Source: Thermicanus aegyptius DSM 12793
GTDB taxonomy: Bacteria; Bacillota; Bacilli; Thermicanales; Thermicanaceae
Reading direction: 5' to 3'
Assembly (NCBI RefSeq): GCF_000510645.1
Contig: NZ_KI783301.1
Span: forward strand, 1,432,705-1,496,704
Length of the DNA stretch: 64,000 nt
Position numbers and translations under genes: made by a program
Notes under the pieces: model-generated
Told to the model about the DNA's origin: nothing
Database searches by the model: none
The model's input: the letters and a program-made list of their open reading frames with translations, nothing else
Shown here: positions 24,375-26,615 of the stretch, piece by piece
Layout: every line of letters begins with the position of its first letter
Position numbering within the stretch: the first letter of the stretch is position 1

Positions 24375-24564
24375 ACTGGCTCCCTCCTCCAACATCCTTA
24401 GTATGTTATGCATAGACATATACATAAATAATTATGATCATAAGATTTTTTTCCGTCAAGATTCCGTGAAGCCTCCATACTCGTTCACTTTCCGCTTTGG
24501 ATTTGGTACTTTGACCTGTAGAGACGTTCAGGGAATCGCCGAGTGTGCCAACTTTTTGCACAGG
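24375..24564. promoter_or_regulatory. Upstream region of the glycan operon, ending in the ISLre2 target repeat
   Basis: Non-coding, divergent spacer that should carry the minus-strand promoter of the glycan operon; an AT-rich stretch around 24415-24450 is the likely site, but no clear hexamers were assigned. Its right end, TTGCACAGG (24556-24564), is the left copy of the ISLre2 target duplication. Confidence 0.4.
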
Positions 24565-24616
24565 GTTAGAGTAAAATAATCATTGGTTGAGATGCAGGAA
24601 AAAGGTCTTAAAATGT

Positions 24617-24660
24617 CGAAAAGAGACCTTGTACACCCTTGTTAAGGAGGTCTCTTTTCG
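24617..24660 (+). promoter_or_regulatory. Hairpin masking the ISLre2 transposase ribosome-binding site and start
   Basis: CGAAAAGAGACC (24617-24628) is perfectly complementary to GGTCTCTTTTCG (24649-24660). The right arm and the adjoining AAGGAGG (24644-24650) contain the Shine-Dalgarno sequence and the first base of the GTG start. A competing hairpin can form further upstream: AAGGTCT (24602-24609 region) with AGACCTT (24624-24630). Confidence 0.6.
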
Positions 24661-26104
24661 TGGAATTATTTAATTACATTAACAGTTTATCGCAACAAGC
24701 CGCAGAAGGCAAGATAGACTTTATACAATTTGGAGAAGGAAATCTTCAAGATGGTCAAAGTATTTGGTGCTTTGTTGATGGAAGAAATACTTGAACAAGC
24801 CGATGAGCTCATTTTTCAAAGTGAAGAACGAGATGGGAAAAGTGGAGGCATACGCCCAATGGGTATACAAACGCTCTTTGGAGAAATCCTGTATCGGCGG
24901 AGGATCTATCAAACAAAGGGGGGGGTGGAGCTACCCACTCGATGAAAAATTAGGGATTGAAAGCAAACAAACCGTAAGTCCTACGTTAAGTCAGATATCG
25001 GCATTTTTAGCCACACAGAACTCCTATCGCCAAAGCGCTCGTATCCTAGGACAACTTGAGCTTCATGTAAGTCATCAGCGAATTCACAAAGCGGTCCAAG
25101 AACAAGGAGAACGAATCAACAAACACAGAGAACAAATGCCGGAGAACGAAAAGAAGCGGGAAGCCAAGATCGTGCTCGTTGAATCGGATGGGGTCTATGT
25201 AAGCCTGCAAGGAAAAGACCGGAAGAAATATGGAACAACCCTGGAAATCAAAAACGGATGTATTTATGAAGGTTGGGAAGCGAAAAACCCGATCAAAAGA
25301 GAATACCGGCTTAAGAATCCAAAGGTGATCGCCACCACCAACTCCTCCAAAGAATATTGGCAGAAAGTAGACAACTATCTCCAAAAGACATATGAAATAG
25401 AAAAAGTGGGGCTATTCGTTTTTGGCAGTGACGGATCATCCTGGGGAAAAGAAGGGGCTGAGTTTTATGCAGGATCCCTACATCAGATCGACAAATTCCA
25501 CTTTCATCGATGGGTTAAACAAGTCTTTGGATTTGGGGAGCCTGCAATGCTGGATACGCTAGAAGCCATGATTGAAGGAGATGACAAAGAAGGGTTTAAA
25601 AAATGGATGGAAACCAAGAAAAGGGAGGCGAAAGATAGTGAAAAGAGAAAAGAGAGCCAGAAGCTAGAAAAAACGATTCTGAAGAACTGGGAAAGCCTCA
25701 AAGACTACCGGAATCGAAGTGACAAAGTACCCGAGGAAGCGCGAGGGATAGGAAACATCGAAAACTTCAATGACCATCTTGTAGCAGACCGAATGAAAAA
25801 AAGAGGGATGAGCTGGAGCAAAGAAGGGGTAGAAAACCTGCTGCAAGTTAGAGCGGCTGTCCTCAATGGGGAATGGGAAGGGATTGAAAAGTGGATCTTT
25901 AATCTCGGCAAAAAAGAAGACCCTCAGCAAACCAACAAGGTAGACGAAACAGAACAAAAAGGTCCAGGGAGGCCAAAAAGGGGCGAACGTCGTCAGGAAG
26001 AGACGGGAGAGTGGTGTCAGGCGCACATGCCTGGTCTGACCGGTCCAAAAGCATGGCTTAGGGAATTTGGACGGAAGATCAATGAGACGATCTCAGCATT
26101 ATAA
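24660..26104 (+). pseudogene. ISLre2-family (UPF0236) transposase, frameshifted
   Basis: Begins at GTG 24660 after AAGGAGG. The frame changes at an extra T in the run 24729-24731, and again at the eight-G run 24918-24925; each needs a one-base insertion relative to the family. Beyond that a 400-codon frame is intact, with family strings VESDGVYVSLQGKD (first catalytic Asp region), VFGSDGSSWGKEGAEFY, YAGSLHQIDKFHFHRW and the Lys-rich central region. Both shifts lie in homopolymers, so sequencing error must be considered against true decay. As read, no full-length transposase is made. Confidence 0.85.
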
Positions 26105-26197
26105 AGAAATAAGAACATATAATCTATATATTTTGATGAGTCTAGGCAAAGAGATTTTGTGGATAGGTAAGCGGTTTGTGGCAGAAAACGAATAAGG

Positions 26198-26374
26198 TGA
26201 GTCGTGCCCGAAGGGTCGGAGTGAAGCTAGCGATGTGGAGAGCCTTTACATGGAGAGGCGCCCCTCATTAAGCGATTGCGAAGGCGGGCGCCCCCGAAGG
26301 GGGATTATTTCGCCCGCCAGCGTTTTTGGGGAGTATGAGGGGGCGCAGAGGCTCCATGTCAAGGCCACGACTCA
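26198..26374 (+). ncRNA. Multi-stem structured segment near the right end of ISLre2
   Basis: Nested complementary arms: TGAGTCGTG (26198-26206) with CACGACTCA (26366-26374); ACATGGAG (26248-26255) with CTCCATGT (26352-26359), flanked by GCCTT/AAGGC; GCGCCCCTCAT (26258-26268) with ATGAGGGGGCGC (26335-26346); inner GGCGGGCG with CGCCCGCC; and a CCCCCGAAGGGGG tip. There is no reading frame. It may be a folded RNA or a palindromic mini-element inserted in the IS. Known function: none that I recognise. Confidence 0.45.
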
Positions 26375-26439
26375 TAAAAATAAAAAAAACAAGGGGAAAA
26401 GCCAATGAGATATTGACAGTAACTTGCACAGGCCGTCAT

Positions 26440-26469
26440 TTGACACCCCCTTCCATCCTTTGTTATACT
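26440..26469 (+). promoter_or_regulatory. Sigma-A promoter of the opuA operon
   Basis: TTGACA (26440-26445) and TATACT (26464-26469), spacer 18 bp (17 if the -10 is read one base earlier). It begins 7 bp after the right ISLre2 target repeat. The transcript should start near the 5' end of the riboswitch aptamer. Confidence 0.8.
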
Positions 26470-26475
26470 GATCAT

Positions 26476-26615
26476 GTGCTTAATTTCCGTGAAAAACGGA
26501 AAACGGGGGAACCAAGTTTTGGGGCGAATCAGCAGACCGTAAGGCTGTGTAGGGAACCATCTTTCCCGAGTCCGTCAGCTAACCTCGTAAGCGTTAGATG
26601 GGGTTATTTTTTTTT
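26476..26615 (+). ncRNA. ydaO/yuaA-type c-di-AMP riboswitch with overlapping terminator
   Basis: Class hallmarks are present in order: GGGGGAACC, GGGGCGAATC, then CCGTCAGCTAACCTCGTAAGC. The outer stem pairs TGCTTA (26477-26482) with TAAGCG (26588-26593). AACCTC (26581-26586) can instead pair with GGGGTT (26600-26605), followed by nine T: a terminator sharing bases with the aptamer's 3' side. The class senses c-di-AMP and lowers osmolyte and potassium uptake when it is abundant, which fits opuA downstream. Confidence 0.9.

Follow-up and report, generated by a model that had tools for sequence, protein, structure and literature searches.

The window, a 64,000-nucleotide stretch of the Thermicanus aegyptius genome, contains an ISLre2-family insertion sequence (IS) at 24565–26423 (+ strand, 1859 bp) with both ends intact. 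The inverted repeats of this element, GTTAgaGTaaAATAatCATTGG, are present at both ends, and flank reading identified a 9-bp target-site duplication, TTGCACAGG, on the left (24556–24564) and on the right (26424–26432). Its assignment to ISLre2 is based on a PF06782 transposase, related inverted repeats, and the 9-bp target repeats. The transposase open reading frame (ORF) lies at 24791–26104 (+ strand) and encodes 437 amino acids in the window copy, with the N-terminal part in a different frame (24730–24945); within 24661–24945, the frame is split near a G run at ~24919–24926. In a sister copy at G000:C1:2439566 the frame is intact and encodes 496 amino acids. A long tail extends from the transposase stop (26104) to the right inverted repeat, and it is here that a 177-nt hairpin is located (26198–26374, + strand). 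With 26423 as the last position of the right inverted repeat and TTGCACAGG on both flanks, this segment falls within the IS, as an earlier note on this DNA had proposed. Beyond the element, 7 nt separate the end of the target site from a TTGACA (26440–26445) that is paired with TATACT (26464–26469), so the promoter on the riboswitch side was left intact; a c-di-AMP (ydaO/yuaA) riboswitch at 26467–26608 (85.7 bits) precedes a glycine-betaine type ABC transporter (26745 onward).

The hairpin consists of 9-bp closing arms (TGAGTCGTG, 26198–26206, and CACGACTCA, 26366–26374, by sequence inspection), an additional small hairpin near 26207–26220, a core, and an inner stem with the tip CCCCCGAAGGGGG (26291–26303, + strand), which belongs to a lineage-specific inner part. 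Folded as RNA, the + strand reaches −89 kcal/mol compared to a shuffled mean of −65.2 (z −5.6, 0/200), and the − strand gives a z of −6.8. The closing arms, stacked stems, and tip described in the earlier note are therefore real. A covariance model of the putative ssoA-like folded promoter core, R1, matches 26235–26372 (+ strand, 61.8 bits). Within this match, a −35-like TTTACA (26245–26250) opens the 5' arm TTTACATGGAG (26245–26255), TAAGCG occupies the −10 position (26269–26274) after an 18-nt spacer, where the family consensus is TAGSCT, and the 3' arm CAGAGGCTCCATGTCAA (26346–26362) includes the asymmetric internal-loop strand AGAGG (26347–26351), all on the + strand.

A genome-wide search of T. 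aegyptius recovered three identical copies of the 177-nt segment, all in ISLre2, together with one further partial match (70 bp, 93%). Flanks were read for two of these three copies, yielding TTGCACAGG in the window and GGTATAAAG as the 9-bp target repeat of a second ISLre2 copy with identical ends. By inspection, no target repeats or terminal repeats of the kind that mark a MITE flank 26198–26374 itself in ISLre2. The suggestion of a nested mini-element thus holds in part: the hairpin is a folded, separable module, and homologous cores occur elsewhere without ISLre2, some of them solitary with terminal repeats and 7–8-bp target repeats, but the 177-nt segment has no target repeats of its own.

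The core (TTTACATGGAG ... CAGAGGCTCCATGTCAA) was found in at least 98 of 400 Bacilli genomes and at least 61 of 145 genera, figures that are an undercount because the census scored no more than eight candidates per genome. Searching with the 17-mer CAGAGGCTCCATGTCAA returned at least 119 GTDB genome stretches, nearly all from Bacillota, and a distant BLAST search against plasmids located the 3' arm with a matching 5' arm in plasmids of Macrococcus, Bacillus, Brevibacillus, Priestia, and Planococcus. Deduplication of the GTDB, plasmid, and viral matches left at least 106 distinct stretches with a 5' arm at no more than three mismatches, at least one of which (L132) is a chance match. A phage collection searched with one typical copy gave no match.

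All-against-all comparison revealed a shared core of ~105 nt within larger units that differ. These are IS256, IS3, IS110-like, IS30, and ISLre2 elements, as well as solitary units of ~200–260 bp; element ends were fixed by comparing copies within one genome, and families were named by Pfam for ISLre2 and by reading sequences and target repeats for the other ISs. The solitary units are MITE-like, with terminal repeats and 7–8-bp target repeats (L066, L086, L109, L130, L149), and their terminal repeats vary between families while the core is constant. Target repeats enclose a hairpin near the transposase stop in IS256 copies (8 bp; GAAGGTTG, CAAGATGA, ATATAACA), in IS3 copies (3 bp; GTT, TAC, CTG), and in an IS30-like element (13 bp). 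Among 186 hairpins, a transposase stop facing the hairpin within 200 nt belonged to 16 IS256, 13 IS3, 5 IstA-like (IS21-like), 5 ISLre2, and 4 IS30 elements. The hairpin is on the same strand as the transposase in 12/13 IS3 and 5/5 ISLre2 elements and on the opposite strand in 4/4 IS30 elements; IS256 hairpins are divided (5 same, 11 opposite).

The hairpin is an optional passenger. It was carried by 1/30 ISLre2, 1/30 IS256, and 3/30 rve loci sampled, most ISLre2 and IS256 relatives being without it, and it adjoined the transposase at none of 60 IS4/5 and IS200 loci sampled; L359, with its hairpin ~1.1 kb away, was left out of these counts. These samples weaken the idea that it is a constant part of copy-out-paste-in families, and with 5/90 loci versus 0/60 they are too small for the two groups to be separated. 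IS-type copies were located on large plasmids, with none among them forming the origin of a small plasmid that replicates by rolling circle. Individual carriers showed further arrangements. In L237, the hairpin lies between two ORFs resembling IS66 orf1 and orf2. In L104 and L222, it overlaps the end of an IstA-like ORF, and in L104 an IstB-like ORF follows downstream, as if the hairpin were placed between istA and istB. Two ISLre2 relatives (L347 and L330, G074) have a different hairpin in the transposase tail, GTCAAGGGCGG ... CCCTTGAC; its arms are TTGAC, and the loop of the L347 hairpin contains TAGCGA. An exact-pattern search of the T. aegyptius genome did not find a hairpin of this type. 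Different folded modules may replace one another in the ISLre2 tail.

Fifty aligned copies yielded one fold, and RNAalifold returned the same fold unaided. From a variable base of 3 bp it passes through an arm of 11 positions and an internal loop of 2/5 nt to a spacer stem of 10 bp; arm position 3 is mismatched, T.C in 62 of 77 copies. The stems covary, the behavior that the earlier note had put forward as a check on their conservation: 12 pairs have two-sided changes, 97.4% of cells are paired, the covariation score was reached in 0/500 shuffles, and both controls support the fold. G.T pairs outnumber A.C pairs by 43:12 (p 3e-5) in one sample and by 78:23 (p 4e-8) in the other, which identifies the + strand as the folding strand and points to selection on the folded + strand. 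It was also observed that in many copies, L046 and L092 among them, the sequence following the −10 (GCGATGC, AAGCCAGC) has two possible downstream partners, one of GCATCGC type and one of ATCGCAA type; the two resulting folds around the presumed start would exclude each other.

The 5' arm has the form of a sigma-A promoter (TTKACA, 17 nt, TG-N-TAnnnT). We assessed this layout in 77 copies obtained via the 17-mer and in 78 nonredundant copies obtained via the model, and found T-12 in 94% and 96%, A-11 in 95% and 94%, and T-7 in 95% and 97%, respectively; selection by the 17-mer biases the first sample toward the 3' arm, and the model behind the second favors these same letters, so the two samples are not fully independent. 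TG at −15/−14 is present in about 90–94% of the two samples, and the 17-nt spacer in 67/77 and 70/78 copies. At the −35, T1 and T2 are kept in 77–78 of the 78 nonredundant copies, and 75 of the 78 have A at position 4. Sigma reads A-11 and T-7 on the open strand. The promoter positions rank among the most conserved of the hairpin, T-12, A-11, and T-7 being near-fixed while most of the adjoining spacer stem covaries. The window copies carry G at −7, where their relative L112 has TAAGCT and thus T-7, and this loss suggests that the window copy is a weakened one. Other ISLre2-type copies (L239, L286, L288) have the complete −10 consensus, and L286 and L288 have a compensated arm (TTGAG/CTCAA).

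No known class had come to mind in the earlier note, a view that has to be revised because the core matches the RNA polymerase-recognized ssoA hairpin of rolling-circle plasmids. The hallmarks of ssoA are the RSB TTATGCCGAGAAAATTT and the CS-6 TAGCGT (PMC4598088); ssoA folds when single-stranded, and RNA polymerase primes on the folded ssDNA (PMC5703833). Two Macrococcus plasmids, L007 and L011, bear both marks of ssoA: TTTATGCCGAGAAAACTTT, the RSB, lies immediately before the hairpin, and TAGCGA, the CS-6, lies in its loop. The copies used to build R1 came from ISs, MITE-like units, chromosomes, and large plasmids, with no RSB-bearing origin included. It finds the ssoA of SAP064A, pSALNCL1.4, pACK4, and pC194 in register right after the RSB and on the correct strand, with scores of 50–55 bits for Macrococcus ssoA, 36.5 and 34.3 bits for S. 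aureus ssoA (L169 and L171), 34.7 bits for pACK4, and 28.2 bits (E 4e-6) for pC194. Matches to pT181 ssoA (9.5 bits) and pE194 are in the right place and not significant, and R1 gave no credible match on pUB110 or on the ssoT-type origins of pTA1060/pTA1040. The RSB TTATGCCGAGAAAATTT occurs in 0/121 nonredundant copies, and CS-6 (TAGCGA/T) in only 7/121 with 2.3 expected by shuffling. A CS-6-like TAGCGA in the window copy (26228–26233) was dismissed as chance, since its close relative L112 is without it. What the family has in common with ssoA is a folded hairpin with promoter elements and a sequence-structure relation to known examples. Given that the IS copies are without RSB and CS-6, we infer from sequence that the hairpin works like ssoA and do not claim that it is ssoA. 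Searching the literature for the motif string, and for single-strand origins in ISs or MITEs, returned nothing relevant, with thin coverage of subscription papers, including the primary ssoA papers.

The IS probably carries the segment as a passenger that acts as a folded single-strand-DNA promoter of ssoA type. This reading is directly supported by the fold, its covariation, the promoter layout, the + strand bias, the cross-recognition of known ssoA, and the position in intact-ended IS copies; RNA polymerase binding, primer synthesis, and a benefit to the IS are predicted. Conjugation, DNA uptake, and rolling-circle replication of the carrier could each present the + strand in single-stranded form, as could strand displacement in transposition. 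Its arms would then pair and rebuild a sigma-A promoter in which TTTACA faces TGTCAA as a double-stranded −35, the spacer is paired and contains the conserved asymmetric internal loop, and the −10 (TAnnnT) lies at an open junction. RNA polymerase would initiate within the hairpin and copy the 3' arm side, and the resulting short primer could support complementary-strand synthesis, as at ssoA. Counted against this reading are the missing RSB, the scarcity of CS-6, G at −7 in the window copies, the 9.5 bits of pT181, the variable orientation to the transposase, the majority of relatives without a hairpin, and the location of IS-type copies on large plasmids.

A folded RNA, also raised in the earlier note, would be the 3' part of the transposase mRNA or a separate small RNA, its fold regulating transposition or protecting the transcript. 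Covarying stems and + strand bias suit RNA as well as ssDNA, and the IS3 and ISLre2 copies lie on the sense strand just past the transposase stop. We nevertheless judge an RNA unlikely because it leaves the conserved TTKACA-17-TGnTAnnnT layout unexplained, with A-11 and T-7 fixed while neighboring paired bases covary, and because the IS30 and most IS256 copies are antisense. No Rfam family matches: at the gathering threshold the window contained only the neighboring c-di-AMP riboswitch, and a permissive search with the segment and 17 related loci gave no family. There is also no terminator-like T run. An intrinsic terminator was rejected on the same ground (7 and 9 of 121 copies versus 11% at random).

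Less probable again is a palindromic mini-element that spreads alone or with MITEs and sits in ISs by chance, in which the fold would serve mobility and play no part as a promoter. The solitary ~200–260-bp units with terminal repeats and 7–8-bp target repeats speak for it, as does the occurrence of homologous cores in several IS families. Against it, what the target repeats bracket in ISLre2, IS256, and IS3 is the entire IS and not the hairpin, the MITE-like terminal repeats differ by family around an unchanged core, and the promoter positions are among the most conserved. An ordinary double-stranded promoter, directed outward or antisense into the IS with an incidental palindrome, would account for the −35/17/extended −10 layout. 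We regard it as highly improbable, as it does not account for the covarying pairing of spacer and 3' arm, and both the G+C-rich −10 (TAGSCT) and the T.C mismatch kept at −35 position 3 (62/77) argue against it.

Within the ssoA-type reading, the carriers suggest a more specific role. A published list places ISLre2, IS3, IS21, IS30, and IS256 among the circle-forming copy-out-paste-in families (PMC9333248), and the figure-eight intermediate of this pathway is converted to a double-stranded circle by host replication (PMC7780238). It is conceivable, if doubtful, that a copy-out-paste-in element in Bacillota brings along a single-strand origin of its own, which would prime the second strand on a single-stranded transposition circle or strand and so give the IS its own start of replication, and that MITEs keep it likewise. 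This idea fits the carriers, but the hairpin is rare per family and takes no fixed orientation relative to the transposase; help in conjugation, DNA uptake, or rolling-circle replication of the host plasmid would explain the hairpin equally well. Single-strand origins have so far been known from rolling-circle plasmids and some ICEs. If an ssoA relative does occur repeatedly in unrelated ISs and MITE-like units of Bacillota, small transposable elements would be equipped for a single-stranded stage or actually go through one. The ssoA-like reading, if true, would also predict which strand is single-stranded and bear on the step from the figure-eight intermediate to the double-stranded circle. 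The family further provides a large natural sequence set for what RNA polymerase needs on folded ssDNA.

Among known systems, ISLre2 insertion sequences are the host element, 29 of 30 ISLre2-type loci sampled being without the hairpin. The sso1 of ICEBs1 and the ssoT-type origins of pTA1060 and pTA1040 are comparable as single-strand origins in a Bacillus mobile element (PMC4595007), but differ in sequence, have three stem-loops, and, for pTA1060 and pTA1040, are not matched by R1. Frpo/ssi of the conjugative plasmids F and ColIb-P9 likewise recreate an RNA polymerase promoter from folded ssDNA (PMC8708921, PMC11541004); they belong to E. coli plasmids, lie in leading regions ahead of genes, and are likened to the hairpin by description, not by sequence. 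Unlike the ssoA (palA) of pC194, SAP064A, and the Macrococcus plasmids, the hairpin has no RSB upstream and no CS-6 in the loop, its inner part is lineage-specific, and it is carried by ISs, MITE-like units, and chromosomes. With these ssoA it nonetheless shares the −35 stem, the asymmetric internal loop with GAGG, the paired spacer, TAnnnT at 16–18 nt (TAAACT, TATACT), and recognition by R1.
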